Assembly: GCA_903970445.1 (NCBI GenBank)
Contig: CAJCIP010000018.1
Coordinates: forward strand, 1 to 64,000
Direction of reading: 5' to 3'
Length of the DNA stretch: 64,000 nucleotides
Source: Verrucomicrobia bacterium Tous-C9LFEB
GTDB lineage: Bacteria > Acidobacteriota > Terriglobia > Terriglobales > Acidobacteriaceae
Part shown: piece after piece, positions 19,019 to 35,097 of the stretch
How positions within the stretch are numbered: position 1 is the first letter of the stretch
Layout: the number at the start of each line of letters is the position of its first letter
Position numbers and translations under genes: made by a program
The notes under the pieces: model-generated
Told to the model about the DNA's origin: nothing
What the model saw: only the letters and a program-made list of their open reading frames with translations
Database searches by the model: none

Positions 19019-20017
19019 TTACTTGCATCCACACGAGTGCCGATAGATCATCTCGCCTGGCAGGGCCACGTTTTGCATCTCAAGCGAGTCATTTCCCGCA
19101 ATCCGCTCAAACAAAATGCTGATAGCGTGTCGGACGATGTTCTCCACGGGCTGACGAACAACCGAAACGGCAGGATCTACCATGGCGGCCATCTCAAAAT
19201 CGTCGAAACCTAGTAAGGGTAGGCGAGATGTTTTTGGAAGAGCCAGTTCGTCGTATGCCTGGAGAGCGGTACGCGTGGCGCGATTGCTGAAACACAACAA
19301 CGCGTCCGGTCCCTTACGGCTAAGCAACGCTGAGCATAGGTGATACCGTAGCTCGTCGTGGTTTGGCGCTTCGATCAGAATTGGTGCTTTCCTGCGGCTT
19401 TCCAGTGCTTCTTTGTACCCGTTCCAGCGCTGCTCGAAACTCATGATTTCGCGGCGGCTTAGAAGGCACGCGATGCGCTTATAACCATGCTGCAGAAGGT
19501 GTTCCGTGGCCGTACGGGCTGCGTCGTGGTTACGTAAAACTACGGAATCCATGGCCGGCGACAGAAACCGGTCGATCGCTACCACAGGCATGCCGTGCAC
19601 CACATTGCGAATACCTTCTGCAGTTGAGCCAGCGGCAGGTGCGAGAATCAAACCGTCCGCGCGATACCGCCTGAGTGTGCTTAGCTGCGCCGCCTGCTGC
19701 TCGGCATTCTCCTGATGCGTTAGCAGGATGACTGCATAGCCACGCTTGTGCGCTTCATCTTCAATCAGTTGCACGGCCTGGGCGTAGAAACTGTTCGTGA
19801 CCTGCGGGATGATTGCGCCAAGCGTCCGCGTGCGGCCACCACGCAGGGCGCGTGCGGTTTCGTCCGGCTGATATTGCAGGCGCGCGCTGGCTTCAGCGAT
19901 GCGAGCCCTGACGCCTTCGGCAACCGTGATCCCTCGGAAGTAGCGCGACACAGTCGACGGGCTGACACCGACAGCTTTCGCGACATCGATGACTGTCGAA
20001 CGTTTTGTCATGCGCAT
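19019..20017 (-). CDS. LacI-family transcriptional regulator of the pectin island
   Basis: 332 residues. The N-terminal helix-turn-helix is TVIDVAKAVGVSPSTVSRYFRG (described in two parts: VAKAVGVS and PSTVSRYF), followed by a hinge (YQPDETARALRGGRT) and a periplasmic-binding-like effector domain. The C-terminus SCGCK is typical of this family. It follows the GH28 gene by 40 bases on the same strand, so it is probably co-transcribed and autoregulated through the palindrome at 21418. LacI proteins bind palindromes with a central CG, and four perfect GACAACGTTGTC copies lie in the control regions of this island. The inducer is likely a uronate or derivative (inference). Confidence 0.92.
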   Translation of the reverse strand: MRMTKRSTVIDVAKAVGVSPSTVSRYFRGITVAEGVRARIAEASARLQYQPDETARALRGGRTRTLGAIIPQVTNSFYAQAVQLIEDEAHKRGYAVILLTHQENAEQQAAQLSTLRRYRADGLILAPAAGSTAEGIRNVVHGMPVVAIDRFLSPAMDSVVLRNHDAARTATEHLLQHGYKRIACLLSRREIMSFEQRWNGYKEALESRRKAPILIEAPNHDELRYHLCSALLSRKGPDALLCFSNRATRTALQAYDELALPKTSRLPLLGFDDFEMAAMVDPAVSVVRQPVENIVRHAISILFERIAGNDSLEMQNVALPGEMIYRHSCGCK

Positions 20018-20057: not shown

Positions 20058-21329
20058 TTACTGTTGCTTCACATCGCTTGCAGGGCCGGCAAGAACGGCT
20101 TCGCCCGCACCGGCATTGATCACCAGACGATGGGCTGCTACCTTCGCGTAGGCCAGGTACATGCCGGTAGCCGCTTCAATTCTTACGTTGTCCAGATGCA
20201 GATCTTCTACCGGCGATTCCGGCAAACCAACGATGACGCCAGCCTTCTTTGCGCCGGTCGCTGTCAAGTTGCGAATCGTAATGTCGTGGAAACGCGGTGT
20301 GAGTCTACCCACCGGCTGCGGCCCCTCACCCTCAGCGGGAAGGACCTTGGGGTAGTACTCGCTGATGAGAATGGGTGTGCCGACGTTATGCATGTTCACA
20401 TCATCTACGCGGATGTCGGAGACATCTGCGCCGCGATCACGGTTGGCCTTAATGCGAATGCCCTGCTCCGTGCCGTCGAAGGTAATGTGGCTGATGTGAA
20501 TCCGTTGCGCTCCGCCGGCGATCTCGCTGCCAATGGATAGCCCGTGGCCGTGCGCGAACGTGCAGTTGGTGATTGTGATGTCTGCGGATGGAGAGTCGGG
20601 TCCGGGTGAGTTGATCAAGCCCGACTTGATCGCAATGTTGTCGTCGCCTACATCGGCATAAACGTGATCGATCAGGACATGTGTCGAAGAAAATGGATCG
20701 ATCGCGTCTGTGTTTGGAGAATGTGGGTCGGCGAGTATCTTTACGTTTTGAATTGTCACATCGTCGCTGTAGTACGGAACAATCTGCCAGAAAGGTGCAT
20801 TTTCAATGGTGAGGTTCTCGATACGCACGTGCTTCGAGTGATTGAGCACAATCAGCCGCGGACGCGGATTACCCTCGCCTACGATCCCATGATCGCGTTC
20901 AGCTCGCGCCTGCTGCCACCAGCTTTGACCTTGGCCATCAATTGTTCCACCACCCGAAAGCACGATGTTTTGCGCGCCTTCCGAACTTAACAGCGGCTGG
21001 AGTGCTGCCGCGCGGAGTTCGGTGATTCTGGGATAGTCGCTATGGTCGGCGGAGCCTCGCAATGTTGATCCGGGCTCAATGTCCAAAATGATGTTGCTGC
21101 GCAGGATAAGAGGTCCGCTGAGGAAGTCTCCGCTAAGTCGAACGGTGCCACCACCCTTGGCAGCGCATGCGTCAATGGCTTTCTGCAGCGCCGCGGTGTC
21201 CTTGGTGTGTGCGTCGCCGCGGGCGCCGTAGGCGTGCGCGTCACACAAGGTGGAGGCGTGCAAAGGCTGTAAAAACACCGCAGCGAAGGCGCAGAGCGAC
21301 GCTAGCGTTAGCATTTGACGAAGTGACAT
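20058..21329 (-). CDS. GH28 polygalacturonase (periplasmic)
   Basis: 423 residues with a signal peptide (about 1-26). It is a right-handed beta-helix enzyme. The four GH28 signatures are all present: NTD at residues 206-208, GDD at 228-230, GHG at 261-263 and RIK at 292-294. The two Asp of GDD and the Asp of NTD form the catalytic set that hydrolyses alpha-1,4-galacturonan. ATG 21329 has GAGGA five bases upstream. It is divergent from the pectinesterase gene with an operator between them, and is followed by the LacI gene. Endo or exo action cannot be decided by eye. Confidence 0.92.
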   Translation of the reverse strand: MSLRQMLTLASLCAFAAVFLQPLHASTLCDAHAYGARGDAHTKDTAALQKAIDACAAKGGGTVRLSGDFLSGPLILRSNIILDIEPGSTLRGSADHSDYPRITELRAAALQPLLSSEGAQNIVLSGGGTIDGQGQSWWQQARAERDHGIVGEGNPRPRLIVLNHSKHVRIENLTIENAPFWQIVPYYSDDVTIQNVKILADPHSPNTDAIDPFSSTHVLIDHVYADVGDDNIAIKSGLINSPGPDSPSADITITNCTFAHGHGLSIGSEIAGGAQRIHISHITFDGTEQGIRIKANRDRGADVSDIRVDDVNMHNVGTPILISEYYPKVLPAEGEGPQPVGRLTPRFHDITIRNLTATGAKKAGVIVGLPESPVEDLHLDNVRIEAATGMYLAYAKVAAHRLVINAGAGEAVLAGPASDVKQQ

Positions 21330-21417: not shown

Positions 21418-21431
21418 AGACAACGTTGTCA
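21418..21431. promoter_or_regulatory. LacI-type operator between GH28 and pectinesterase genes
   Basis: AGACAACGTTGTCA contains the perfect 12-base palindrome GACAACGTTGTC (21419-21430). It lies 89 bases before the GH28 start and 39 bases before the chosen pectinesterase start. It would allow one repressor to control both divergent genes and, through GH28, the regulator itself. Confidence 0.85.
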
Positions 21432-21469
21432 GTTTTTGTCTAGCTGCGGTGGTAGAAGAGGGCCAACCC

Positions 21470-22501
21470 TTGAGAAGTCAGGTGCTATTCAAATCACTAA
21501 TACCGTCTGCTCTGATCTGCGTCCTTGCGGCATACACGCTTCGGCCGACTTCCTCGACCGCCCAAGACGTTCACATTCACGTCATACAAACGACGAAACA
21601 GGCCGCCGTTTCCGCTGTCCCCGCAGAGTTTCCAACAATCCAGATGGCGCTGGATCACGCGCCTGCTCCTCCCTCAAACGGTCGCCTTATCATTCACATT
21701 GCTCCCGGAATATACCGCGAACGGGTTTGGGTTTCGCCCGAGCGAACGCGGACCACGTTCCTTGGCGAAGGTGCGGATGCCTCGCAGGTTGTGATCGTGG
21801 CCGGGCAGAGTGCGAAAACAGCAGGCGGCACATTTCTTTCCGCGACGACTAACATCAGCGCTGCAGACTTCCATGCCGACCGAATTACGTTTGCAAACGA
21901 TGCCGGTCCAGTCGGGCAGGCCGTTGCCATCGCTGTGAATGCCGATCGTGCGATCTTCAAGCACTGCCGCTTCCTCGGCGACCAGGACACGCTACTGGCG
22001 AATTTCGGCCGGCAGTTATATGTTGACTCGTATATCGAAGGTGGTGTGGACTTTATCTTCGGTAATGCCACTGCGCTCTTCGAGCACGACGAAATTCACA
22101 TCATTCGCCCGGGGTATCTTACGGCGCAGTCACGCACATCTCCCGCACTCACCACTGGGTATGTGTTCGACCATTCCACTGTGACCGCTGCTGACATGGG
22201 CGAAAAGCATTTCTACCTGGGTCGTCCGTGGCGCGCATACTCGCGCGTCGTGTTCATGAATACAGAACTGCCTGCTTCCTTGCACTCCGACGGCTGGGCA
22301 ACGTGGACGAGCAACACGCCAGACCTGACGACACCGTTTTATGCAGAATTTGCGAACTCCGGCCCCGGCGCCAACACGGTGCAGCGCGTTTCCTGGTCGC
22401 ATCAGCTCACGTCCCAGGAGGCGGAAGCATTCGCGCCCGCGAAGTTTTTGCGTGGCGACGACCATTGGGACGCGTTGCACGAAGCTGCCAGCTTACCTTG
22501 A
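21470..22501 (+). CDS. pectin methylesterase (CE8)
   Basis: About 343 residues. Pectinesterase signatures are clear: GPVGQAVAIAV (catalytic Gln region), FLGDQDTLL (first Asp), YIEGGVDFIFGNATALFE (second, nucleophilic Asp) and FYLGRPWRAYS (Arg). It removes methyl groups from pectin so that polygalacturonases can act. The start is uncertain. An in-frame ATG at 21413 would place the operator inside the gene and spoil the signal peptide. TTG 21470 has GAAGAGGG seven bases upstream and gives a normal signal sequence (SLIPSALICVLAAY). GTG codons at 21449/21452 are alternatives. Confidence 0.9.
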   Translation: MRSQVLFKSLIPSALICVLAAYTLRPTSSTAQDVHIHVIQTTKQAAVSAVPAEFPTIQMALDHAPAPPSNGRLIIHIAPGIYRERVWVSPERTRTTFLGEGADASQVVIVAGQSAKTAGGTFLSATTNISAADFHADRITFANDAGPVGQAVAIAVNADRAIFKHCRFLGDQDTLLANFGRQLYVDSYIEGGVDFIFGNATALFEHDEIHIIRPGYLTAQSRTSPALTTGYVFDHSTVTAADMGEKHFYLGRPWRAYSRVVFMNTELPASLHSDGWATWTSNTPDLTTPFYAEFANSGPGANTVQRVSWSHQLTSQEAEAFAPAKFLRGDDHWDALHEAASLP

Positions 22502-22519
22502 CCGACGGCTTAGAGGCGC

Positions 22520-23917
22520 TCATCGTGACGCACTGCTTTTGGAGGGGAACATACATGTCTGTTGTTGTGAATCGCGGCGCGTCTGCGCGGTGACCACTGT
22601 ACCCCTAACGTCGTCGCCCGACAGACGGAAATCAACCGGACCGGGACCGTAGGAGACATGCGCGTGCTCGGCGAATTGCTTGTAAGCCTGTGGCTGATCC
22701 AGCCGAACGTCGTCGAATCTTGCTGTCGTCGCATGCGCGGTGTCGGTTCCGTCCACGGTTAGCTTTCCTCCTCCAGCGATGCGAACGTCTTTGAACGCGA
22801 CATCTCGGAAGAGCGGGATCTGAAGACTGTTTAGGCTTGAGCCACTGTTGTCGTAGCGCGTGTCGATGGAGATGGGGTTTGCCGTATCGCGAATGCAGAC
22901 ATCTTCATACCGAATGCGTTCGACGAGGCCACCGCGGTGAATATTGGACTTGATGCGTAGGCCATTGTCCGCCCCATCGATCGTCAAGCCGCGCACAAGC
23001 ACATCGCTCACACCCGCACACGTTTCCGAGCCGATGGACATGCCGTGACCGGCGTAGAAGTGGTTGTCGATAACGCTCACGTGCTGGACGCCCGTCCCGC
23101 TTCCCTTTATGGCGATATGGTCATCCCCCGTGCTGATGATGCTGTGAGTTACCGTGATGTCCGAGGCGCTGCCCGGGTCGATGCCGTCGGTATTGCGCGC
23201 GCGTTGTGGCGCCTTAATGCGCACACACCACACCGTGAAGCCACGACCGTTGCTGTAGACGAGGTGGAAGTTGGGTGAGTTCCGAAGAGTAATACGATAG
23301 ATCGAAAAATCGTCTGAGTGATCTGCCACCACAAGCCGAGGGACTTGTTGGCGTCCGCCTCTGCGCGCCTGCTCCGCTAAATCCCACCAGGTTATAGAGT
23401 CGTGAAGCAACTTCGCGCCACCGCGGCCGTCGACGACGCCCTCGCCCATCAGTGCTGCGTGTGGCGCATCGTCGATGGCGATAAGCGCCTTGCATCCGGC
23501 GGCCTCATGATTGACCACGCCGCAGCTATTGGGAGTCCGGTCGAATACTCGAGGGTCACGCGAGGCAAAGAGCGTGACACCTTCATCGATGAGCAACGTC
23601 ACATTCGCGGGAATGCTGATAGGGCCTGATAGGAAAGCATTCAACCTCCCATTTGCCGCGAGCTCGACAGCACTACCGTGGTCGCAGTGGTCGAGGGCTT
23701 GCTGAATGCGATTTGTATCCAGTCGCTCTTCGTCTTCAGCAGCTAAACTTTCGTTTTTCGCCGCGATGCCTGCCGAGAGGCGGACACAAGTTTGCGGAAT
23801 GTGCGGTTCCGTCACGGTACGGCGGTCCTGCGCGTGGCTGCTGCAGGATGTAAGAAGTGCCACTGATATCCATGCAAGCCCGTTCTTTACGCAAGGGGCG
23901 AGGTGCAAGGTCTGCAT
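22520..23917 (-). CDS. GH28 polygalacturonase, lipoprotein form
   Basis: 465 residues from ATG 23917, which has AGGAG eight bases upstream. A longer frame exists but would overlap the receptor gene. The N-terminus is a lipoprotein signal (ALLTSC lipobox), so this enzyme is probably membrane-anchored, unlike the other GH28. Family motifs are NTDGIDPG, TGDDHIAIKG, YAGHGMSIGSE and LRIKSN. It follows the TonB receptor gene after a hairpin of 14 pairs, suggesting co-transcription with reduced read-through. It could act on oligogalacturonides after capture at the cell surface (inference). Confidence 0.9.
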   Translation of the reverse strand: MQTLHLAPCVKNGLAWISVALLTSCSSHAQDRRTVTEPHIPQTCVRLSAGIAAKNESLAAEDEERLDTNRIQQALDHCDHGSAVELAANGRLNAFLSGPISIPANVTLLIDEGVTLFASRDPRVFDRTPNSCGVVNHEAAGCKALIAIDDAPHAALMGEGVVDGRGGAKLLHDSITWWDLAEQARRGGRQQVPRLVVADHSDDFSIYRITLRNSPNFHLVYSNGRGFTVWCVRIKAPQRARNTDGIDPGSASDITVTHSIISTGDDHIAIKGSGTGVQHVSVIDNHFYAGHGMSIGSETCAGVSDVLVRGLTIDGADNGLRIKSNIHRGGLVERIRYEDVCIRDTANPISIDTRYDNSGSSLNSLQIPLFRDVAFKDVRIAGGGKLTVDGTDTAHATTARFDDVRLDQPQAYKQFAEHAHVSYGPGPVDFRLSGDDVRGTVVTAQTRRDSQQQTCMFPSKSSASR

Positions 23918-23943
23918 GATGTGTCTCCTACTAAGCAGATAAG

Positions 23944-23975
23944 CAACGGAAGCGTCCACAAGGACGCTTCCGTTG
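23944..23975 (-). terminator. strong hairpin between TonB receptor and GH28 genes
   Basis: A perfect 14-pair stem, CAACGGAAGCGTCC (23944-23957) and GGACGCTTCCGTTG (23962-23975), with loop ACAA. There is no T-tract on the minus-strand 3' side (GCTTATCTGC), so it may be a partial terminator or a transcript-stabilising structure rather than a full stop. Confidence 0.6.
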
Positions 23976-23996
23976 GCCCAAATTATGCACAGTGCG

Positions 23997-26900
23997 TTAG
24001 AAGACAATTCGCGCACCCAACTGAACCTGGCGTGGGAGGCTGTTGCTGGCGGTGGCAGTGACTTCCCCGAAGTTCGACGACGTTGCGCTGGTAACGTTCG
24101 GTGCGGCAAACACAGGATGATTTAGCGTGTTGAAGGTCTCAAAGCGAAGTTGCAGATACGCTTTCTCCGTGAAGTTGAAGTTCTTCAGGATGGAAGCATC
24201 CAGCTCGTTGAAGCCGTCGGCTCGAACCCAGGACAGTGTTTGCGGAAGCGTGCGGTAGTGCATGTAGTACTGGCCGTTGAAGAAGCTCTGTCCACTGAGG
24301 TCGCACGTCGTTCCGGTAGCGCACGCCGTCGCCGTTCCTGTCACGAAAGGTCCTAAACCACCGGCGCTGCTGGAAGGAATTGCAGCGGTGGCCTGCACCG
24401 GCGATGTGTTTCGCGGATTGATGCGGAGCGCACGCAGGTCAACGTTAGGACTGACAGGAATATCGGCAGTGAAGACAACCGGAGGCCCCGTCTGGAATTG
24501 ATAAATGCTGTTCATGACAAAACCGCCGAACACCTCGTTCAGCAACTTGCTCCCGCCAAGCGAGAACTTCTTACCTCGGCCAAACGGCAGCTCATAGGTT
24601 CCACCTGCAGTGAAGTGGTGCGTGTGATCGAACGGAGAGACTCGATTGGTCGTCGCCGTATCTTCGTCGTTCAAGAACGTATCAGCTTCGGTCAGCTTCG
24701 AGAAGCTGTAGTTCGCAGTCACTGTCAGCCCATGGAATGCGCGCTGTTCGAAGTGAAGAATCGCACTGTTGAAGTGGGACTGCCCAATCGTCTGATTCTG
24801 GACATATACGTTCGTGGTGCCGTACTGAGGGAATGGGTAGGTAAGGTTCGAGAAGGGGACGGTAGAGCTATTCGCCGTGCCTCCGTTTGGCAGAAGTCCG
24901 GAATAAGGGTTCTTGACTTTTGTAGAGTACGCATTTGACAAGGTCTGATTGCGGTAAGGCGCGGTCGTCAAATAAGGCAGAAGCGGAGCGTTGATGTTCT
25001 GCTGCTGCACAGGCAGATGCAGAGCATGATTGCCTACATAGATGACTTCTACCAGGGTCTTCGATCCGAACGAATGCTGCACATCAAGGTCCCAGCGTTC
25101 GGAGTAGGGATCATGTTCCACCGGCGCAAGGAAACTGATGGTTTGACCAAGATATGTGCTCGCCCCCTGCGAGGATCCAGCAACCTGGGTGAACCCGCTC
25201 GGGAATGGATTTGCGAGCGTGGTTGCCGGTGTGAAGTAGTTATTGGTTGTTGGGTTATACGTTGTGGTTGCGCTGAATCCCTCGTTATTTGTAAGTGCAT
25301 TCGACGAGTACGATCCATTGCTTGCCAATGTAGAGAGGACTTCCGGCTGAACAAAGATACCGAAACCCGCACGCACTACTGTTTGCGGCGTAAGGCTGTA
25401 GGCAATGCCAATACGCGGACTAAAGAAACCGTTGTTGGTTGCGTAAACAGCACCGTTGGCGGTATTCGGGAATGTCAATCCACCGAGCGTGTTCAGCGAA
25501 TTTACGGTGTAGTTCTGCCCGCTATAGGTGACGGCTGTCGGCTTGAACGCAGCCGTTGCTGCGGTCGATGCCGAATTCACCGCGGTCGGATTGAAGCCAT
25601 TGACGATCGCTCCGTTCTTCTCGCGATACGGAGTGTCGATGTCATACCGAACTCCAAGGTTCAATGTGACCTTGTCGCTGACATGCCAGTCGTCCTGTAG
25701 AAACGAGCCAATATAGAACTGGTGGTAGTCGGCGCGCGCAGGCGTGTTGAAACTACCGGCCGTCGGCAGGCCAAGCAGAAACGATGCAAGGTCTGCGCCA
25801 AACAGACTGGTGTTGCCGCTTGTCGAGTTGCTGTTCACAAAGCTTGAACTGAAAGTAAAGCTGCCGCTCGATGCTCCGTAATTCTCCACGGTGAGCTTAT
25901 AGAGCCGGCCATCGAAGCCGACCTTTACCGTGTGCTTACCGATCACCTTCACCACGTCTACGAAGGTTTGGTAGCTCGTGGTCGGATCGATGCCGGCGCT
26001 TGTGTCGCCAAGGCAGGTATAACTCGTGAAGCTACCGCAGCTTCCACCGTACGAGAAGTTGATGTACGGCAACTGGACTAGGCTGCTCGATCCCTGCACG
26101 TAGGAGGGGAAGCCAACCTGCGATGGGGAATACGCCTGCGCAGGCGTGCCGTGGGTCTCATTAAAGAATGTCCAATTGGCGCGCGTATCCAAGATGGTAG
26201 TGGGGTTCAACGTGAACACGTTGTCTACCGTCGTACCGAAGTTCTCGCGAAATAGCGTTGTTCCGGTTAGACCATTGCCAAAATAATCATTCTTGATCTG
26301 CGAGCGATAGTTGTGGCGCACGTCCAGAAACAAATGGTCGCGGCTGCTGATGTTGAAATCCAGGCGGCCGAACTCGTTGTTATAACGATCCACGCTCGGC
26401 GCATTGCTGATGTAGTTGCTCTGACCGTTGGGCTGTACGCCTGCTGTCGCGTTCGGCAAAGGAATGAGCGCGAGATAGGCCTGCGCAATCGGGCTGAATG
26501 GCTGTCCCACCGAAGTGAGCTGGTTATTGAGAATTGGCTGACGTGTGTAGCTCGTGCTCGTTCCGGTTGGATTGTAAGGATTGTAGAGCTGGTTCGGATC
26601 AGCATAAGCCGTTTTGTTGCTGCCATACGGCAGGCATTGTGCCGCAGCCTTTGTCGGATCGTTTGCAAATCCACCCGGACAGCCTGCTGCGAGCACTTGC
26701 GAGAAGTCGCCTGTCCGCTCTGCTGCCGTGGGAACGGTCTGCGTCGTTGCGTTTGGTTGCGAATCCTTCAAACCTTCATACGCAAAAAAGAAGAAGAGCT
26801 TGTCTTTACCGTTGAACACTTTCGGGACCAATACCGGTCCGCCGAAGGTCAGGCCGTACTGGTTGTAGTGCGTGATCGCCAATGGAATGTTGTTGCGGTC

Positions 26901-27728
26901 ATTCAAATACAGGTTCGCGTCAAGATTCGGAATCTGGTTGAACTCGTAGACCGTGCCGTGAAATCCATTCGTTCCGCTCTTCGTGATCTGGTTGATGACA
27001 CCGCCGATGGTGTGGCCGAAGCTCGCGTCCGTATCAAAAGGACGAACGGAAATCTGTGCCACGCCGTCTTGCACTGGCGAATAGGCCAGCGCACCAAGCA
27101 ATGTTAGGTCCGGCGATCCATCCAAGAGCACCTCGCTAATCTGGCTTGGCGTGCCGCCGATCGACCATGAATTGCCCGCGTTGTTGTCGAAGGGATGCAC
27201 GAGGCCTGGTGCGGAAGTTGTGATGACGCCCGGGGAAAGCTCGGTGAATACGACAGGCGTACGCCCATTAAGCGGAAGATCAGCAACCTGCGTGGTGTCA
27301 ATTACCTCGCCAATGCTTGCGTTTGCTTGGTCAATCAGCGGTGGAGCTGTTGTTACCGTAACGCTTTGCGCTTCCGAACCCGCCCTCAAGGTGATATTCA
27401 CTAACGGATGGCCCTGCGCGTCCAGCATCACGTTCTTCTGTGTGGTTGTCTCAAAGCCCGAGTTTACGACCGTGACGGTGTACTCGCCGGGCAACAGGAA
27501 AGGCACCACGTATTGTCCCGCGCTATCACTCACCGTGCGGTTGACGGTTCCGGTGTGTACCTCGCGAACAGTGACCGCCGCCTTCGGAATAACAGCACCG
27601 CTCGAGTCTGCAACAGTGCCGCTGATAGTTCCGCGGAACTCTTGAGCAAACGCTGAGGCGGACATGAATAGGAGCAGGAATACGACGAGCGCAAAAGAAC
27701 GGCGCACCATGGAATTAGCGCGATTCAT
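23997..27728 (-). CDS. Oar-like TonB-dependent receptor with carboxypeptidase-regulatory-like domain
   Basis: 1243 residues from ATG 27728, which is preceded by GGAGG; an upstream in-frame start lacks this. The signal peptide (ALVVFLLLFMSASAFAQ) is followed by a CarboxypepD_reg-like domain (FRGTISGTVADSSGAVIPKA, about 30-115), a plug domain (PLNGRTPVVFTELSPGVITT) and a large outer-membrane beta-barrel ending in an aromatic-terminal strand (QLGARIVF). Such receptors are abundant in Acidobacteriota and are thought to import polysaccharide fragments. Here the operator just upstream and the pectinase neighbours suggest oligogalacturonide uptake. No TonB box was identified. Confidence 0.92.
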   Translation of the reverse strand: MNRANSMVRRSFALVVFLLLFMSASAFAQEFRGTISGTVADSSGAVIPKAAVTVREVHTGTVNRTVSDSAGQYVVPFLLPGEYTVTVVNSGFETTTQKNVMLDAQGHPLVNITLRAGSEAQSVTVTTAPPLIDQANASIGEVIDTTQVADLPLNGRTPVVFTELSPGVITTSAPGLVHPFDNNAGNSWSIGGTPSQISEVLLDGSPDLTLLGALAYSPVQDGVAQISVRPFDTDASFGHTIGGVINQITKSGTNGFHGTVYEFNQIPNLDANLYLNDRNNIPLAITHYNQYGLTFGGPVLVPKVFNGKDKLFFFFAYEGLKDSQPNATTQTVPTAAERTGDFSQVLAAGCPGGFANDPTKAAAQCLPYGSNKTAYADPNQLYNPYNPTGTSTSYTRQPILNNQLTSVGQPFSPIAQAYLALIPLPNATAGVQPNGQSNYISNAPSVDRYNNEFGRLDFNISSRDHLFLDVRHNYRSQIKNDYFGNGLTGTTLFRENFGTTVDNVFTLNPTTILDTRANWTFFNETHGTPAQAYSPSQVGFPSYVQGSSSLVQLPYINFSYGGSCGSFTSYTCLGDTSAGIDPTTSYQTFVDVVKVIGKHTVKVGFDGRLYKLTVENYGASSGSFTFSSSFVNSNSTSGNTSLFGADLASFLLGLPTAGSFNTPARADYHQFYIGSFLQDDWHVSDKVTLNLGVRYDIDTPYREKNGAIVNGFNPTAVNSASTAATAAFKPTAVTYSGQNYTVNSLNTLGGLTFPNTANGAVYATNNGFFSPRIGIAYSLTPQTVVRAGFGIFVQPEVLSTLASNGSYSSNALTNNEGFSATTTYNPTTNNYFTPATTLANPFPSGFTQVAGSSQGASTYLGQTISFLAPVEHDPYSERWDLDVQHSFGSKTLVEVIYVGNHALHLPVQQQNINAPLLPYLTTAPYRNQTLSNAYSTKVKNPYSGLLPNGGTANSSTVPFSNLTYPFPQYGTTNVYVQNQTIGQSHFNSAILHFEQRAFHGLTVTANYSFSKLTEADTFLNDEDTATTNRVSPFDHTHHFTAGGTYELPFGRGKKFSLGGSKLLNEVFGGFVMNSIYQFQTGPPVVFTADIPVSPNVDLRALRINPRNTSPVQATAAIPSSSAGGLGPFVTGTATACATGTTCDLSGQSFFNGQYYMHYRTLPQTLSWVRADGFNELDASILKNFNFTEKAYLQLRFETFNTLNHPVFAAPNVTSATSSNFGEVTATASNSLPRQVQLGARIVF

Positions 27729-27770
27729 TTCGTAGGACCTCCGGAGTGTTGCAGTGGCTTCGACACAAAG

Positions 27771-27784
27771 AGACAACGTTGTCA
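27771..27784. promoter_or_regulatory. LacI-type operator upstream of the TonB receptor gene
   Basis: AGACAACGTTGTCA with the perfect palindrome GACAACGTTGTC at 27772-27783, 44 bases upstream of the receptor ATG. It lies just downstream of the putative -10 element, a position where a repressor would block initiation. Confidence 0.85.
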
Positions 27785-27796
27785 GTGACGGCCAAC

Positions 27797-27826
27797 ACTC
27801 TAGACGGAAGGAGCAAAAGTCGTCAA
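27797..27826 (-). promoter_or_regulatory. putative sigma-70-type promoter of the TonB receptor gene
   Basis: On the minus strand, TTGACG (27826-27821), an 18-base spacer and TAGAGT (27802-27797). It matches the consensus at five and four positions. The operator starts 13 bases after the -10 hexamer. Confidence 0.5.
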
Positions 27827-27859
27827 GTCTGGCTTATGCGGAGGTGACTGTCGTTCGTC

Positions 27860-29179
27860 TTATCGAAGCTGTGCGCCGCTGAAATCAGCACGCCGAAGGT
27901 CTGGCGCAATCAGCTGCAGCATGAGCCAGCCGAGAAGGTAGACACACCCAGCCAGCGTGAAGAGAGCAGAGTAGCTGTGGGTTAGCTGAAGGATGTGGCC
28001 GGCAGCGACCGAAAGCAACACACCGCCGACCGACCCTGCCATGCCCCCGATGCCCACCACGCTACCAACCGCACTTCGCGGAAACATATCCGATGCCGTC
28101 GTATAAAGGTTTGCCGACCAGCCCTGATGCGCGGCGGCAGCGATGCTGAGCGTTGCGATGGCGAGCCATTCGACTCGCAGATGGGCAGCGAACAGCATTG
28201 GCAGGGAGCAGCATGCGCAGAGGAGCATAGCAGCGCGCCGCGCTTTCCACTGACTCGCTCCAAGACGGAGGAACAGCGTTGGCAGCCATCCGCCTGCGAT
28301 GCTGCCTATGGCGGATACGTTGTAGACCAGGATGAGCGGCAGGCCAAGGTGCGACAGACCAAGATGGAACCGGGAATCAAAGTAACCCGGAAGCCAGAAA
28401 AGATAGAACCACCAAATCGGATCGGTGAGGAACTTAGCGCAGGCGAAGGCCCAGGTCTGTCGCAGTCGCAACAGGCGAGACCATGGCAACGTGGCCACCT
28501 GTTCTTCCTCTGCTCGTTCGAGGATGACGGCGAGCTCCTCACCGGTAAGCGTGGGATGCTCGTGGGGCCGACGGTATATCACACACCACCACGCGATCCA
28601 CGTCATGCTGAAGATGCCTGTGGATAGGAACGCAGCTCGCCAGCCAAAGCGCAAGGTCACCCACGGAATGAGGGCAGGCGCAATCATCGCACCCAAATTT
28701 GCGCCTGAATTGAAGATGCCCGTCGCCAACGACCGCTCGCGCTGTGGGAACCATTCGGCGACCGTTTTGACTGCGGCAGGGAAGTTTCCCGCCTCACCCA
28801 GCCCAAGGAAGAAGCGCGCGATACCAAACCCAAGCGCGCTGCGGGCCAGCGAATGAGACATCGCCGCGATGCTCCAGGTAAGCATGATGAGCGCATATCC
28901 AAGTCGCGAGCCCAAACGATCTACGAGCCGTCCGGCAAGCAGCAATCCACCTGCATAGGCCACCTGGAAAGCAGCAATAACGTAACCGTAGCTAAGCTCG
29001 GTAAGGCCGATAGAGTGCTGCAGCGTTGGCTTCAGCAGGCCTATAACTTGCCGGTCCATGTAGTTGATGGAGGTCGCCACGAAGAGCATGGCGCAGACCG
29101 TCCAGCGAACACGACCAAACGGAGGGCGCGACCGCACCTCAGGTCCGCCGGAGGTGCGCGAGTCCTGCGTTACTCCCAT
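27860..29179 (-). CDS. MFS transporter, ExuT/anion:cation symporter type (hexuronate)
   Basis: 439 residues with about twelve hydrophobic segments. The family signature SINYMDRQVIGLLKPTLQ in the first helix and GLGEAGNFPAAVKTVAEWFP after helix 4 are characteristic of the ACS family that includes hexuronate transporter ExuT. It should import galacturonate or glucuronate with protons across the inner membrane. The start codon lies inside the end of uxaE (overlap of ten bases), so the two are translationally coupled. The exact substrate is inferred from context. Confidence 0.88.
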   Translation of the reverse strand: MGVTQDSRTSGGPEVRSRPPFGRVRWTVCAMLFVATSINYMDRQVIGLLKPTLQHSIGLTELSYGYVIAAFQVAYAGGLLLAGRLVDRLGSRLGYALIMLTWSIAAMSHSLARSALGFGIARFFLGLGEAGNFPAAVKTVAEWFPQRERSLATGIFNSGANLGAMIAPALIPWVTLRFGWRAAFLSTGIFSMTWIAWWCVIYRRPHEHPTLTGEELAVILERAEEEQVATLPWSRLLRLRQTWAFACAKFLTDPIWWFYLFWLPGYFDSRFHLGLSHLGLPLILVYNVSAIGSIAGGWLPTLFLRLGASQWKARRAAMLLCACCSLPMLFAAHLRVEWLAIATLSIAAAAHQGWSANLYTTASDMFPRSAVGSVVGIGGMAGSVGGVLLSVAAGHILQLTHSYSALFTLAGCVYLLGWLMLQLIAPDLRRADFSGAQLR

Positions 29180-30453
29180 GAGATGCCCGGTTGCTTTCCC
29201 GGAAAGATCGGCCGTATGTGCCGATGCAGCAGGTTCTCCGTGACATTACGCGCAATCACAACTTCATTTGCTTCGAGCGCGTCCAGGTAACGTCGGCCCA
29301 TTTTGGCGGCGATCTTGAAGCCGACATGTAAGAGCTGCCGGAAGTCTGGGTTATACGAAGGATCAGCCTCATCGTGGCGCAGAGCGCGCACATACTGATC
29401 GCTGGTCCAGGTAAGCACAAGTGCTGGAGACGGTAGCGTGTCCCGATCGATGTTGATCACGGTCGCATATGGCGCGCAAAGCTCGTCTGCATGAGCGTAC
29501 GCTTGCGCGTAGATTTCTGCTGCCAGTGCGAGGGAACGGCCCCCGGCCTCCGCAAGGCCAATCAGCTCTTCCAGCCAGGTGGTGCCTGCGGTTTTTACAT
29601 GGACTCCCGCGTTGAATTCGATCAATGCGGCTCGGATTGCGGGATAAATGCTGAACTTATCTGACCCCGAATGGACGCTTAGCTTCAGATTTGTTTGCAG
29701 TCCATACCGCTCCACGGCATACGCAATCGTGGCGAGGTCATCGCGGAATTCCTTTGCGAATTGTGTGACATCGCCGGCAAAGTCCACGCCCTTGTTGAAT
29801 CGCCCCGTGAACTTGGGAGCAATTGTTTGAATAGGAATCTGCTCGTCACCGATGGCGGCGAGGATGATCAGCAGCTCTGAAGGCGTCTGCGGAGAGTCGG
29901 TTTCATCCATCGAAATTTCCGCAACGAAACCGCTATTGCTCTTCTTTTCGGAAATGGTGCGATAAATCTCTCCGGCGTGTCGCACGGCTGCGAGAAACTG
30001 GCCGGCCGTCCGTTCCGCAAATGTACGATCGATCACAAACGGGTCGGCGATCCGAGGGATGCGAAGTTCACCGATGAGCTCCGGGTGTCTATCAAGAAAC
30101 GCGTTTATCTGCTCCTCATCGGACGCCCTACCGATGGTGTCAGCCACATCGATGGTGAAGAAGTCGCACGGCGCAACGAAGCGATCTAAGTTTGTCAGAT
30201 TAATGTGGTCTGCATCGACGAAGAACGGTGAGCTCCACTTCGACTCTTTGATCGCCTCTTCTACTGCGCTACGGGTGGCTGCTGGTTCCGATCCGATGAT
30301 CATGTGCTCGCGGTTAGATTTGTTCCAAACGGGGATCACCGGGATGCCTTCTCGCCCGGCATCAATGCAGGCCTGAAGCTGCGCCTTCGCTTGGTGGGCG
30401 AAGCGGTCACCGACGCCGATGGAATACTTCGGAAGTTGGAGAATGGTGCTCAT
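29170..30453 (-). CDS. uxaE: UxaE, D-tagaturonate epimerase
   Basis: 427 residues resembling the tagaturonate epimerase family first described in Thermotoga pectin metabolism: MSTILQLPKYSIGVGDRF at the start, VIPVWNKSNREH, and the block KFTGRFNKGVDFAGD followed by KLSVHSGSDKFSIYP. The enzyme converts D-tagaturonate to D-fructuronate, joining the galacturonate route to the glucuronate route. GGAGG precedes the ATG by about eleven bases. It is the first gene of the leftward uxaE-transporter operon, with two operators upstream shared with the uxaC operon. Confidence 0.87.
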   Translation of the reverse strand: MSTILQLPKYSIGVGDRFAHQAKAQLQACIDAGREGIPVIPVWNKSNREHMIIGSEPAATRSAVEEAIKESKWSSPFFVDADHINLTNLDRFVAPCDFFTIDVADTIGRASDEEQINAFLDRHPELIGELRIPRIADPFVIDRTFAERTAGQFLAAVRHAGEIYRTISEKKSNSGFVAEISMDETDSPQTPSELLIILAAIGDEQIPIQTIAPKFTGRFNKGVDFAGDVTQFAKEFRDDLATIAYAVERYGLQTNLKLSVHSGSDKFSIYPAIRAALIEFNAGVHVKTAGTTWLEELIGLAEAGGRSLALAAEIYAQAYAHADELCAPYATVINIDRDTLPSPALVLTWTSDQYVRALRHDEADPSYNPDFRQLLHVGFKIAAKMGRRYLDALEANEVVIARNVTENLLHRHIRPIFPGKQPGISWE

Positions 30454-30527
30454 GAAAACTTTGTCCTCCCATCCTCATGCTCATGGCAACGTATAAACCA
30501 GCGAGTGATGCCAAGATGCTCGATGGC

Positions 30528-30541
30528 AGACAACGTTGTCA
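30528..30541. promoter_or_regulatory. LacI-type operator, uxaE side of the divergent uronate promoter region
   Basis: AGACAACGTTGTCA, perfect palindrome 30529-30540, 75 bases before the uxaE ATG. On the minus strand it contains TTGACA, a perfect -35 hexamer, so repressor and RNA polymerase may compete here. The -10 candidate downstream is poor. Confidence 0.83.
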
Positions 30542-30606
30542 ACATCGATCCCGGGGTGACCTCTCGCGTGTAGTTTCCCATTCTTAGTCTCTGGTGGCTT
30601 TCAGCT

Positions 30607-30620
30607 TGACAACGTTGTCA
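30607..30620. promoter_or_regulatory. LacI-type operator, uxaC side of the divergent uronate promoter region
   Basis: TGACAACGTTGTCA is the longest copy, a full 14-base palindrome, and is preceded by T to give TTGACA on the plus strand. Its centre is 79 bases from the centre of the neighbouring copy. This spacing would allow a tetrameric LacI-type protein to loop the DNA (inference). Confidence 0.85.
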
Positions 30621-30680
30621 TTAGGAGATCATCATGCTGCATTGCGCTTTGCTGTGTCGGACAATAGGAATCCTAACGTC

Positions 30681-32114
30681 ATGCCCCTGCTTTACGACGA
30701 CAGACTTTTCCCTGTGGATCCGTCCGCGCGCGCAGTCGCGAAGCGTCTCTACGCAAGCGTTTGTGACCGCCCAATTATTAGTCCCCACGGCCACACGAAT
30801 GCAGCGTGGTTCCGTTCCAACGATCCATTTCCGAACCCCGCGAAACTCCTCATTCAGCCGGATCATTACGTGCATCGCATGCTGTACAGCCAAGGAGTTT
30901 CGCTGGAGAACCTGGAGATCGGCGAACCGGAGATTCGGAATCCCCGCAAAGTTTGGCAGATTTTTGCCAAGCACTATTTCCTGTTCCGCGGGACCCCGAC
31001 ACGTCTGTGGCTTGACTATGCCTTTCAGGAACTGTTCGGGTTGACGACGCGTCTGGACGCCTCTACCGCCGACTTGTACTTTGACACAATCACGGAAAAG
31101 CTACAGACGCCTGAGTTCCGTCCCCGGGCGCTTTACCAGCGGTTCAATCTTGAGCTGCTTGCAACGACCGATTCACCGCTCGACAGCCTGGACGACCACG
31201 CAGCGCTGATTGGCTCCAGTTGGCACGGGCGGGTGATTCCGACGTTCCGTCCGGATGCGGTGACTGATCCGGCGTTTGCAAACTTTCGCCACAATCTTGA
31301 TAGGCTGGGCGGACAAAACGGCGAAGATCCTTCCACTTGGACCGGGTATCTGCAGTCGTTGCACAAGGAGCGTCAGCGATTTAAGGAGCTCGGTGCAACA
31401 GCGACCGACCACGGTCATCCGACCGCGCAGACGGCGAATCTCTCAATCGATGAAGCAGCCCGTCTTTATGCAAAAATTTACAGCGGCAACGCGGACACCA
31501 ACGAGCAGGAGTTGTTTCGCGCGCAAATGCTGACAGAGATGGCCCGTATGAGCATCGATGATGGCCTTATCATGCAGATCCATCCGGGGTCGTTTCGTAA
31601 TCATAACGAGCAACTCTTCACGAGGCTCGGCAGGGACATGGGAGCAGACATACCAACCCCCACTAACTACGTGAATGCGCTGCAGCCTCTGCTTTCTGAG
31701 TTTGGTAATGACACACGTTTGCGAGTGATTCTTTTCACACTCGACGAATCGGCGTATAGCCGCGAACTCGCGCCTCTTGCCGGTCACTATCCGAGTCTGC
31801 TGCTCGGACCAGCGTGGTGGTTTCACGATAGCCCGGAAGGGATGATGCGCTACCGGGAACAGGTGACGGAAACGGCAGGCTTTTACAACACGGTGGGGTT
31901 CAACGACGACACCCGCGCCTTCCTTTCGATCCCCGCCAGGCACGATGTAGCTCGCCGTGTAGACTGCGCGTACTTGGCCCGGTTGGTCAGCGAACATCGT
32001 CTGGACGAAGACGAAGCCTTTGAACTCGCGGGGCAGCTCACCACCGATCTGGTACGCAAGGCCTATCGTCTGGACCGTCGTGATGACGCGGTAGCGAAGG
32101 CTGGAGCAGCATGA
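30681..32114 (+). CDS. uxaC: UxaC, uronate isomerase
   Basis: 477 residues from ATG 30681 (E. coli UxaC is about 470). An upstream in-frame start would run through the control region. Metal-binding amidohydrolase-like motif SPHGHTN is near residue 37, and a second block HYPSLLLGPAWWFHDSPEGM is near the C-terminal third. Typical opening YDDRLFPVDPSARAVAKRLY. It isomerises D-galacturonate to D-tagaturonate and D-glucuronate to D-fructuronate. First gene of the rightward operon uxaC-SDR-larA-larE-larB. The stop overlaps the SDR start (ATGA). Confidence 0.93.
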   Translation: MPLLYDDRLFPVDPSARAVAKRLYASVCDRPIISPHGHTNAAWFRSNDPFPNPAKLLIQPDHYVHRMLYSQGVSLENLEIGEPEIRNPRKVWQIFAKHYFLFRGTPTRLWLDYAFQELFGLTTRLDASTADLYFDTITEKLQTPEFRPRALYQRFNLELLATTDSPLDSLDDHAALIGSSWHGRVIPTFRPDAVTDPAFANFRHNLDRLGGQNGEDPSTWTGYLQSLHKERQRFKELGATATDHGHPTAQTANLSIDEAARLYAKIYSGNADTNEQELFRAQMLTEMARMSIDDGLIMQIHPGSFRNHNEQLFTRLGRDMGADIPTPTNYVNALQPLLSEFGNDTRLRVILFTLDESAYSRELAPLAGHYPSLLLGPAWWFHDSPEGMMRYREQVTETAGFYNTVGFNDDTRAFLSIPARHDVARRVDCAYLARLVSEHRLDEDEAFELAGQLTTDLVRKAYRLDRRDDAVAKAGAA

Positions 32115-32884
32115 AACATCCACTCAGCCTTAATGGACGCGTTGCGGTCGTGGTCGGCGGTACCAGCGGCATTGGACGCGCCATCAGCCTCGGTCTGGCC
32201 GAAGCCGGCGCAGACGTTGTGAGCACAGGACGTCGTAGTGAACAGGTGGATGCCGTGGCGACTGAGATCGAGGCGCGCGGTCGACGCTCGTTGCGTCATT
32301 CCGCCGATCAGAGTGACCGTGGGCAGATCGACTCACTTCTGGAAGCCTGCCTGCGCGAGTTCGGTAAAGTCGATATTCTTTGCAACTGCGCCGGTAAGAT
32401 CAAGCGCTCGCCAACGCTGACGGTGTCGGAAGCGGAGTGGCACGACATTCTCGACACGAACCTCACAGGAATGCTCCGCTGCTGCCAGGTGTTCGGCGGA
32501 CACATGATCCAGCGCAAATATGGCCGGATCATCAACATCGCCTCCCTGAACAGCTATGTGGCGCTGAACGAGGTAGCTGCGTATGCAGCGAGCAAGGCCG
32601 GGGTGCTTTCGCTTACTCGGTCGCTGGCGGTGGAGTGGTCCCGGCATGGCGTTTTAGTGAACGGCATAGCGCCAGGTGTCTTCCGCACCGAGTTGAATGC
32701 CGCACTGCTGGACGGATCACCACGAGGACAGGAGCTGCGCATGCGCACACCGATGAATCGTTTCGGCAAGACGGAAGAACTCGTGGGGGCAGCGATCTAC
32801 CTGGCCAGTGATGCGGCCTCGTTCACGAACGGGCACACCATCGTCGTAGATGGGGGCTTCCTTGCCAGCGGCGTGAATCAGTGA
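32111..32884 (+). CDS. short-chain dehydrogenase, probable uronate/sugar-acid oxidoreductase
   Basis: 257 residues of the classical SDR family: cofactor motif GGTSGIG at 16-22, NCAG near 92-95, catalytic Ser145, Tyr158 and Lys162 (YAASK). It is closest in appearance to KduD and gluconate 5-dehydrogenase. Because the island encodes pectin hydrolases rather than lyases, unsaturated uronates are not expected and a KduD role is less natural. Reduction of D-fructuronate to D-mannonate, replacing UxuB, would fill the step after UxaE (inference). ATG overlaps the uxaC stop by four bases. The coenzyme preference was not determined. Confidence 0.85.
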   Translation: MKHPLSLNGRVAVVVGGTSGIGRAISLGLAEAGADVVSTGRRSEQVDAVATEIEARGRRSLRHSADQSDRGQIDSLLEACLREFGKVDILCNCAGKIKRSPTLTVSEAEWHDILDTNLTGMLRCCQVFGGHMIQRKYGRIINIASLNSYVALNEVAAYAASKAGVLSLTRSLAVEWSRHGVLVNGIAPGVFRTELNAALLDGSPRGQELRMRTPMNRFGKTEELVGAAIYLASDAASFTNGHTIVVDGGFLASGVNQ

Positions 32885-32927: not shown

Positions 32928-34244
32928 ATGCCCTGGTTCGCGATAGAAGCCGATCATGTGCAAGATGAAGAAATCCGGCATGCTGCCGACAGGCTCTTGC
33001 AGGAGGCCCGCGCGCGCCTCGGACGGGAGTTGAAGCGTGTACTTTTGCTTCCGCCAGATCTCACACGCGCACACAGCGGGTCTGGCTGGATTACGGAATA
33101 TCTGTACAACGCACTGCCCGACGCTCACGTCGAAGTGATTCCTACGCTGGGCCAGCACATCCCGCACACCGAGGCTGAGAATAAGTGGATGTTCGGCTCT
33201 ATTCCGAACGAGAGGATCTTTGAGCATGACTGGCGCAATGGCTGCACCCGCGTGGGCGTCATTCCTGCAGAACTTGTTGCCGAGTCAACCGCCGGTGCCG
33301 CCGATTGGGAAATTCCTGTCGATCTCAATTCGAAGCTGATCGAGGAGCGGTGGGACCTCATCATCAATGTGGGACACGTGGTGCCTCATGAGGTACTTGG
33401 GTTCGCGAATCACAACAAGAACTATTACATCGGGCTCGGGGGCAAGGACACTATCTGTGCGTCGCACATTGCCGCCGCTGTGTACGGAATCGAGAACAAC
33501 CTTGGATGTCTCGTCACTCCTTTACGCGCCTGCTATAACTGGTCCGAAGCACGGCATCTGCAGGATCTGCCGGACGTCTACTTCCAGATCGTGATGCACC
33601 GCGATATGCAGAATAGGCTGGTCACGAGCGGCATCTATGTAGGCGATGACCTGGAAACCTACCTGCAAGCCGCACGGCGTAGCCGGGACCAGAACATCAC
33701 CGTCTTCGATAAGCCGGTAAAGAAGATCGTCGCGGTCATGCAGGCCGACGAGTTTCGCGCCACATGGGTGGCGAACAAGGCTGTGTATCGCACACGCATG
33801 GCGATCGCCGACGGAGGCGAACTGCTCATCATCGCCCCCGGAGTCGAACGCTTCGGCGAGCAACCAGAGGTCGACGCTCTTATACGCAAGTACGGCTATA
33901 AGGGAACGCCGCGCACACTTGCGCTGTATAAGACCGAGCCCGACATGCAGGAGATACCGCACGGCGTCGCCCATCTAATCCACAGTTCCAGCGAGGGGCG
34001 TTTTACCATCACCTATGCGCCGGGCCATCTTTCCCGCGAAGAAGTGGAGCAAGTGGGATATGCCTATGCAGACCTCGATGCTATGACGCGGCGGTACGAT
34101 CCAAGCTTTATGAAGGAAGGCTGGAACACGATGCCTGATGGCGAAGAAGTCTTCTACATCAGCACGCCGTCCGCCGGCCTTTGGTGCACAGCAGACAAAC
34201 TCAAAATCCCCGGACGCCGCGATCTTTCCAATGAACTGTTCTGA
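32928..34244 (+). CDS. LarA-superfamily nickel-pincer enzyme (probable sugar-acid 2-epimerase)
   Basis: 438 residues of the lactate racemase (LarA, DUF2088) family. Counterparts of the nickel-pincer ligands can be placed: His77 in PTLGQH, His154 in VVPHEVLG, Lys164 ten residues later, and His180 sixteen after that. These match the H174-K184-H200 spacing of Lactiplantibacillus LarA, so the site looks intact. The superfamily contains lactate, malate and other 2-hydroxyacid racemases and a D-gluconate 2-epimerase. In this uronate operon the substrate is probably an aldonate such as D-mannonate or D-altronate, not lactate (inference). AAGGAG precedes the ATG. larE overlaps its end by 14 bases. 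Confidence 0.9.
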   Translation: MPWFAIEADHVQDEEIRHAADRLLQEARARLGRELKRVLLLPPDLTRAHSGSGWITEYLYNALPDAHVEVIPTLGQHIPHTEAENKWMFGSIPNERIFEHDWRNGCTRVGVIPAELVAESTAGAADWEIPVDLNSKLIEERWDLIINVGHVVPHEVLGFANHNKNYYIGLGGKDTICASHIAAAVYGIENNLGCLVTPLRACYNWSEARHLQDLPDVYFQIVMHRDMQNRLVTSGIYVGDDLETYLQAARRSRDQNITVFDKPVKKIVAVMQADEFRATWVANKAVYRTRMAIADGGELLIIAPGVERFGEQPEVDALIRKYGYKGTPRTLALYKTEPDMQEIPHGVAHLIHSSSEGRFTITYAPGHLSREEVEQVGYAYADLDAMTRRYDPSFMKEGWNTMPDGEEVFYISTPSAGLWCTADKLKIPGRRDLSNELF

Positions 34245-35097
34245 CGAGAAGAGGGCGTTGCAAGGCAAGCGGGACGCACTTCGCGCTCAGTTGGAGCGGT
34301 ATAGTGGGCTCGCCATCGCGTATTCGGGCGGTGTCGACTCAGCCTACTTAGCCTGGGAGGCGCATACCGTTTTAGGCCCCCGCATGGTTGCGGTGCTTGC
34401 GGATTCTCCGAGTCTGCCACGCACGCATTTTGCATTTGCGCAGGAGTTTGCGCGCGATAACGGCATCCCTTTGCATATCGTCAGGACCATGGAGATGTCC
34501 CGGCCAGAGTACGTCCGCAATGATGCGATGCGTTGCTTTCACTGTAAGAGCGAACTTTTTCTAGCTATGGGCGCAGTTGCCCGCGAGCTGGGTATCCCCG
34601 CTGTTGCCTACGGACGCAACCTGGACGACAGCAGTGATTTCCGTCCAGGCGAGCAAGCAGCCCAGCAACATGCCGCCGTCGCTCCCCTCGCCGACGCGGC
34701 GTTGACCAAAGCTGAAATTCGCTCTCTCGCGCTACAAGCGGGCCTCCGCGTGTGGGACCGGCCTGCATCGGCATGCCTTGCTTCGCGTGTGGAGTACAAC
34801 CGGCCGGTCACCACGGAGGCGTTGCGGCAGATTGAACACGCAGAAGATGCGCTGCTCGCCCTGGGTTTTCGGCAGCTGCGCGTCCGTCATCATGGTGACC
34901 TGGCGCGCATCGAGATCGAACGTACTGAGCTTCCACGCGCGTTCGCATTGGACATGCTTGCACGCATCACCAGCGCTGTACGTGATGCGGGTTTTACCTT
35001 TGTGACACTCGATACCGAAGGTTATCGCACAGGAAGCATGAACGCCCTGCTTCCTGTCTCTGTGCTTCTTCGCGCTGGAAAAAGTGATGCAGCGTAG
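34231..35097 (+). CDS. larE: LarE, ATP-dependent sacrificial sulfur transferase
   Basis: 288 residues from ATG 34231, which overlaps the larA-like gene by 14 bases. A longer upstream frame is just the shadow of that gene. The PP-loop SGGVDS is at 32-37, CxxC at Cys102/Cys105 (RCFHCKSELF), and Cys182 in the ASACLASR motif corresponds to the sulfur-donating cysteine of known LarE. LarE adenylates the pyridinium dicarboxylate intermediate and inserts sulfur during synthesis of the nickel-pincer nucleotide. The three cysteines could instead hold an iron-sulfur cluster that recycles sulfur, as proposed for some homologues. The stop overlaps larB. Confidence 0.92.
   Translation: MNCSDEKRALQGKRDALRAQLERYSGLAIAYSGGVDSAYLAWEAHTVLGPRMVAVLADSPSLPRTHFAFAQEFARDNGIPLHIVRTMEMSRPEYVRNDAMRCFHCKSELFLAMGAVARELGIPAVAYGRNLDDSSDFRPGEQAAQQHAAVAPLADAALTKAEIRSLALQAGLRVWDRPASACLASRVEYNRPVTTEALRQIEHAEDALLALGFRQLRVRHHGDLARIEIERTELPRAFALDMLARITSAVRDAGFTFVTLDTEGYRTGSMNALLPVSVLLRAGKSDAA

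Follow-up and report, generated by a model that had tools for sequence, protein, structure and literature searches.

A predicted control system for pectin use in the Acidobacteriaceae

The question raised by this locus was whether a short palindrome repeated across a pectin-use gene island serves as a set of control sites and, if so, which regulator acts on them. The window, i.e. the whole stretch of DNA that was analysed (64,000 nt), contains a LacI-family gene within the island together with four copies of GACAACGTTGTC at 21419, 27772, 30529 and 30608. The initial annotation had called these copies perfect, and all of them were exact matches. It had also stated that, as far as could be seen, the palindrome occurred nowhere else in the window, and no further exact copy was present there. 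A pattern search of the remaining 3.6 Mb of the draft genome returned no exact GACAACGTTGTC either, giving a genome total of four. The draft comprises 3,678,110 bases in 133 contigs and is 94.4% complete, and in this state it may lack another regulator or site. Under a first-order Markov model the expected number of copies was 0.005 per window and 0.28 per genome, and GACAACGTTGTC was the only 12-base palindrome present more than once in the window, with 16 other kinds occurring once each.

Near copies were then sought genome-wide. The 14-mer TGACAACGTTGTCA was exact at 30607 only, and the other three sites deviated from it at a single position, where A replaces the first T. Besides these four sites, no place in the genome matched TGACAACGTTGTCA with one mismatch or fewer, and 16 places matched with two. 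One-mismatch versions of the 12-mer occurred at 21 places elsewhere, 20 of them inside ORFs of 537 to 3036 bases, while the last (contig C54, position 10736) followed a stop codon and ran into a REP-like TGTCATCCTGAGCGAAGCG stretch. The initial annotation had named many copies in unrelated genes as the outcome that would speak against a regulon; because the near copies elsewhere sit in ORFs or at a REP-like repeat, the genome-wide search gave no such picture.

Placement of the sites in the gene island

The island is ordered as lacI and GH28a (minus strand), site 1, pectinesterase (plus), GH28b and the TonB-type receptor (minus), site 2, the MFS transporter and uxaE (minus), sites 3 and 4, and finally uxaC, a KduD-like SDR gene, larA, larE and larB (plus) (Table 1). 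Sites had been described before the GH28/pectinesterase pair, before the TonB receptor and between uxaE and uxaC, and in this order a site stands at the head of every transcription unit, roughly 40 to 90 bases from the start codons when reassigned starts are used. The claim that each site lies in a control region was borne out for all four, which are outside coding sequence given a pectinesterase start at 21470. For site 1 this depended on the choice of start: the longest pectinesterase ORF (from 21413) would include the site, whereas the TTG at 21470, the likelier start because AGAGG precedes it and a signal peptide follows it, puts the site upstream. The start of uxaC is most likely 30681, since in the open ORF the match to the family model sets in at residue 31. 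An AGGAG with a well-spaced ATG at 30634 (30623-30636) opens a frame different from that of uxaC, which may represent a leader ORF or result from a sequence error. As judged from the DNA sequence, it is well supported that the four palindromes are genuine regulatory sites of the pectin-use island.

Table 1. Features of the pectin-use island (positions in the window).
Feature	Position	Strand	Basis or remark
LacI-family repressor gene, second of GH28a-lacI unit	19019-20017	-	PF00356 and Peripla_BP domains
GH28 polygalacturonase (GH28a), first of GH28a-lacI unit	20058-21329	-	PF00295, 5e-51
Operator 1 (predicted)	21419-21430		In spacer of predicted GH28a promoter (21442-21413, - strand); ~40 b upstream of pectinesterase start
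Pectinesterase, TTG start	21470-22501	+	PF01095, 5e-73; start from sequence reading
Second GH28 (GH28b), downstream of receptor	22520-24109 (longest ORF; true start likely inside)	-	PF00295, 1e-54
TonB-type outer-membrane receptor, ATG 27730	23997-27730 (longest ORF to 27776)	-	PF25183, 1e-173, and CarboxypepD_reg
Operator 2 (predicted)	27772-27783		Follows closely on the predicted -10 of the promoter at 27826-27797 (- strand); receptor start 42 b further on
MFS transporter, D-galactonate-type, overlaps uxaE end	27860-29179	-	PF07690; TIGR00893, 1e-68, below curated cut-off
uxaE, tagaturonate 3-epimerase	29170-30453	-	PF16257, 2e-46
Operator 3 (predicted)	30529-30540		Overlaps a -35 of perfect sequence (TTGACA) facing uxaE, whose start is 76 b away
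Operator 4 (predicted)	30608-30619		Overlaps -35 TTGACA of predicted uxaC promoter (30606-30635)
uxaC, glucuronate/galacturonate isomerase	30681-32114 (ORF open from 30594)	+	NF002794, 4e-167, residues 31-492
KduD-like SDR, candidate D-mannonate (fructuronate) oxidoreductase	32111-32884	+	TIGR01832, PRK08277 (neither reaching its cut-off)
Putative nickel-dependent hexonate epimerase, LarA group 18 (larA homolog)	32928-34244	+	NF052594, 577 bits (cut-off 500)
larE, nickel-pincer cofactor synthesis	34138-35097 (longest ORF, overlaps larA)	+	TIGR00268, 1e-87
larB, nickel-pincer cofactor synthesis	35084-35869	+	NF033503, 2e-84

Footprint of the palindrome in related genomes

Close orthologs of the island LacI were found only in the same acidobacterial family (24 of 398 genomes at E < 1e-60), and a class-wide draw of 399 genomes added no ortholog outside it. 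LacI relatives at the level of about 36% or less, retrieved from a scan of named genomes, were rejected as orthologs; many belonged to the VGTTTVSR class, and most had no perfect palindrome ahead of the lacI gene itself. The footprint set consisted of 21 ortholog loci (456 kb) from the same family. It contained 10 exact copies of TGGCAACGTTGCCA and, at one mismatch or fewer, 30 sites in 19 of the 21 loci, whereas 150 control palindromes with permuted arms averaged 0.09 sites and gave 2 at most. GGCAACGTTGCC was common to 15 loci, and the runner-up palindrome to 3. The TGGCAACGTTGCCA-type sites preceded units of the TonB-type receptor (in G194, G189, G388, G356, G259 and G279), GH28, pectinesterase or uxaE, or lacI itself, and whole-genome searches of the relatives gave further sites before an unlinked GH28 gene (G226, contig C69), before rhamnogalacturonase-like genes (G259, contig C49; G116, contig C113) and before receptors. 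A palindrome of this shape is thus linked to this LacI family upstream of the same genes, and the linkage is conserved. Given the footprint in ortholog loci, the link between LacI and palindrome does not depend on the window alone, and since the sites in relatives precede the same target genes, the pectin/uronate regulon itself is conserved.

Two further observations were made in these genomes. The ortholog in G166 may serve sulfated uronic polysaccharides, because exact TGGCAACGTTGCCA lies just before two sulfatase genes (L205, 5568; L206, 5763) and a heparinase-like gene adjoins lacI. In another acidobacterial LacI class (VGVGTASR; L020, L061 and L070), a perfect TGGAAACGTTTCCA lies 194-224 b upstream of the gene.

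Probable identity of the regulator

The protein encoded at 19019-20017 combines a LacI helix-turn-helix (HTH; PF00356, 34.3 bits against a cut-off of 27) with a periplasmic-binding-protein-like sensor (PF00532, 2e-27), and its hinge ARALRGG, which carries Leu, goes together with a CG-centred palindromic site as in LacI-family operators. No NCBIfam LacI equivalog reached its cut-off, the best being RbsR with 157 of 382 bits. Five LacI-family proteins are encoded in the genome; only this one lies in the island, and only this one has a P-S recognition pair in the TVSR helix (VSPSTVSRYFR), the recognition helices of the other four reading VSTMTVSR, VSTATVSR, LSVATVSR and LSPATVSF. The palindrome was not found upstream of any of those four genes. 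The four palindromes very probably serve as operators for the LacI-family repressor whose gene is at 19019-20017. The proposal that this gene and the four sites form a local pectin regulon gains support from the exclusivity of the sites and from the footprint over the 21 related loci, and the suggested autoregulation through GH28-lacI has its parallel in G194, G166, G295 and G291, where a site lies upstream of lacI or of an operon ending in lacI.

A scan of 17.4 kb predicted four sigma-70-like promoters, a total below that in shuffled sequence (7.3), and three of the four overlapped or adjoined a site. The -35 at 30606 (uxaC) stems partly from the operator itself. At the receptor promoter the site lies 13 bases past the predicted -10, and on the uxaE side the perfect TTGACA overlapped by the site is without a good -10 after it. 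These positions at predicted promoters would suit a repressor.

Other readings of the sites were weighed against this evidence. They could be operators of another regulator, either one of the other four LacI proteins or an unseen one, or be shared by several, and the palindrome is indeed a common LacI-type operator, being present also upstream of actinobacterial LacI genes with the helices VSLKTVSR, VSPKTVSR and VGLKTVSR. We consider this unlikely, in that the other four proteins differ in recognition helix and lack the palindrome before their own genes, the exact sites are confined to the island, and the island LacI is orthologous to the regulators footprinted at the same genes. LacI-family regulators include ones with effects of either sign, and the real transcription starts may lie elsewhere than predicted, so that the regulator might activate or act both ways instead of being a simple repressor. 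This possibility is, if anything, slightly less probable than the preceding one, as each predicted promoter involved is overlapped by its site in the -35, the spacer or the start region, and the sites lie 40-90 b before start codons. That the palindrome is a repeat element or a product of chance would be in keeping with its shortness and with the near copy on C54 that is fused to a REP-like repeat, but the excess of copies over expectation, their position upstream of genes in all four cases and the counterparts kept in 19 of 21 ortholog loci leave this explanation a negligible probability.

Predicted mode of action

Under repression by the island LacI, a dimer would occupy each 14-bp site, with the hinge-helix Leu placed at the CG in the middle and a recognition helix on each TGACA arm. 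The repressor would then cover the -35 at uxaE and uxaC, the promoter spacer at GH28a and the transcription start at the receptor gene. An intermediate of galacturonate breakdown would release it, co-inducing the secreted polygalacturonases, the pectinesterase, the outer-membrane receptor and the inner-membrane transporter and, by the same release, UxaC, UxaE, the KduD-like dehydrogenase and larA-larE-larB. lacI itself would also be induced, constituting negative feedback. In this scheme we infer DNA binding, repression rather than activation, the identity of the inducer and the operon structure. A looping pairing of sites 3 and 4 was considered and is not favoured, the two being 79 b apart (~7.5 turns).

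A G-to-A switch in the operator

All four sites in the window read GACAACGTTGTC, in which NT-5, as numbered by Camas et al. (PMC2978694), is A rather than G. Exact TGGCAACGTTGCCA was not found anywhere in the window's draft genome, and a one-mismatch G-type site (contig C11, position 76705) was discarded as it lies inside a receptor ORF. The nearest orthologs (63-64%) have the G-type operator and so do not keep the exact 12-mer. The only other A-type ortholog was that of G295 (47% identity), whose locus includes a GH95 gene and whose site stands ~150 b upstream of lacI. Among the regulators compared, Ser at AA-14 with Phe at AA-22 was present only in the window LacI and G295; in the other clade members AA-14 is Gly and AA-22 is Leu or Val. 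AA-15/AA-16, in contrast, were P,S in both A-type proteins and in six G-type proteins (G116, G226, G285, G301, G273 and G242a). In the published code (PMC2978694), AA-15/AA-16 are tied to NT-5/NT-4, with a few exceptions allowed. Here the same residues went with GC at NT-5/NT-4 in the six proteins versus AC in the window and G295, and the (P,S) recognition pair with two operators is an exception to the published LacI code.

The two A-type regulators do not share a single origin according to a tree built without the HTH, which set them apart and rejected them as one clade (p-AU 5e-6, for a pair named after seeing the data and in a tree with long branches). The simplest reading is two co-switches of repressor and operator, and two events are few; recombination of the HTH could also have produced the pattern. 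Along the window's lineage TGGCAACGTTGCCA would have given way to TGACAACGTTGTCA as operator, with a parallel change in the recognition helix. We put forward only tentatively, and with more doubt than confidence, that two independent co-switches (AA-14 Gly to Ser with AA-22 Phe; NT-5 G to A), not explained by AA-15/AA-16, expose a determinant of specificity beyond the two-residue code, with every operator of the window's genome converted. A family-wide rule by which Ser at AA-14 gives A and Gly gives G was dismissed, since a Streptomyces LacI with VGLKTVSR has TGACAACGTTGTCC, an A-type site. Unrelated actinobacterial LacI genes (L051, L052, L048, L046, L047 and L055) have GACAACGTTGTC upstream, which makes the A-type operator a recurring LacI site, and the palindrome is not unique to the island regulator's type.

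A possible gluconate route for galacturonate

The mannonate dehydratase UxuA (PF03786) was not found in the draft genome. LarA group 18, to which the larA homolog of the uxaC unit belongs, is predicted to act on a hexonate (Desguin et al., PMC7583248), and in eight genus relatives a GntK-type gluconokinase gene lies between uxaE and the KduD-like gene (e.g. L152, 5118-5621). Together, the lack of a UxuA match in the draft, the group-18 LarA in the uxaC unit and the gluconokinase in relatives suggest a route from galacturonate through tagaturonate, fructuronate, mannonate and gluconate to 6-phosphogluconate, in which the group-18 LarA would carry out the step from mannonate to gluconate and replace UxuA. 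LarC (PF01969), which is needed for the cofactor, was likewise not found in the draft genome, and its absence may be an assembly gap or a real puzzle.

Discussion

The system is very probably a LacI-controlled pectin/galacturonate regulon of an ordinary kind; the operator switch and the LarA gene under its predicted control add to its interest. It provides a compact, fully specified predicted pectin regulon in soil Acidobacteriaceae, and the two naturally occurring operator types, each with its matching repressor, are material for studying how LacI specificity changes. If true, the two co-switches would reveal a determinant of LacI specificity beyond the accepted two-residue code. The operon context places the group-18 LarA putative hexonate epimerases in galacturonate breakdown, with conversion of D-mannonate to D-gluconate as the prediction.

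A literature search for an acidobacterial hexuronate LacI regulon found none. Six unrelated LacI groups have been counted for glucuronate/galacturonate (PMC4052901), and the UxuR, KdgR, UxaR and ExuR groups of Ravcheev et al. 2014 (PMC4052901) resemble the present regulator in being local galacturonate/pectin regulators with a CG-centred palindrome. However, the word Acidobacteria is not in the text of that paper, and orthologs of the window's repressor came from a single acidobacterial family only. This group also scored far below the cut-off of every curated LacI equivalog. In their predicted hexonate substrate, the group-18 proteins are comparable to the GntE D-gluconate 2-epimerases of the LarA superfamily (PMC7583248, PMC11770544), the prediction likening them to groups 19 and 20 (D-mannonate to D-gluconate); unlike GntE, group 18 is here encoded within a galacturonate operon, next to larE and larB, in a draft genome where UxuA and LarC were not found. 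With the code of Camas et al. 2010 (PMC2978694), the system shares the TVSR helix, G at NT-6, the Leu hinge with a central CG and a variable NT-5. It departs from that code in that P,S orthologs have either G or A at NT-5, tracking AA-14 (Gly/Ser) and AA-22, which are outside the published pair.
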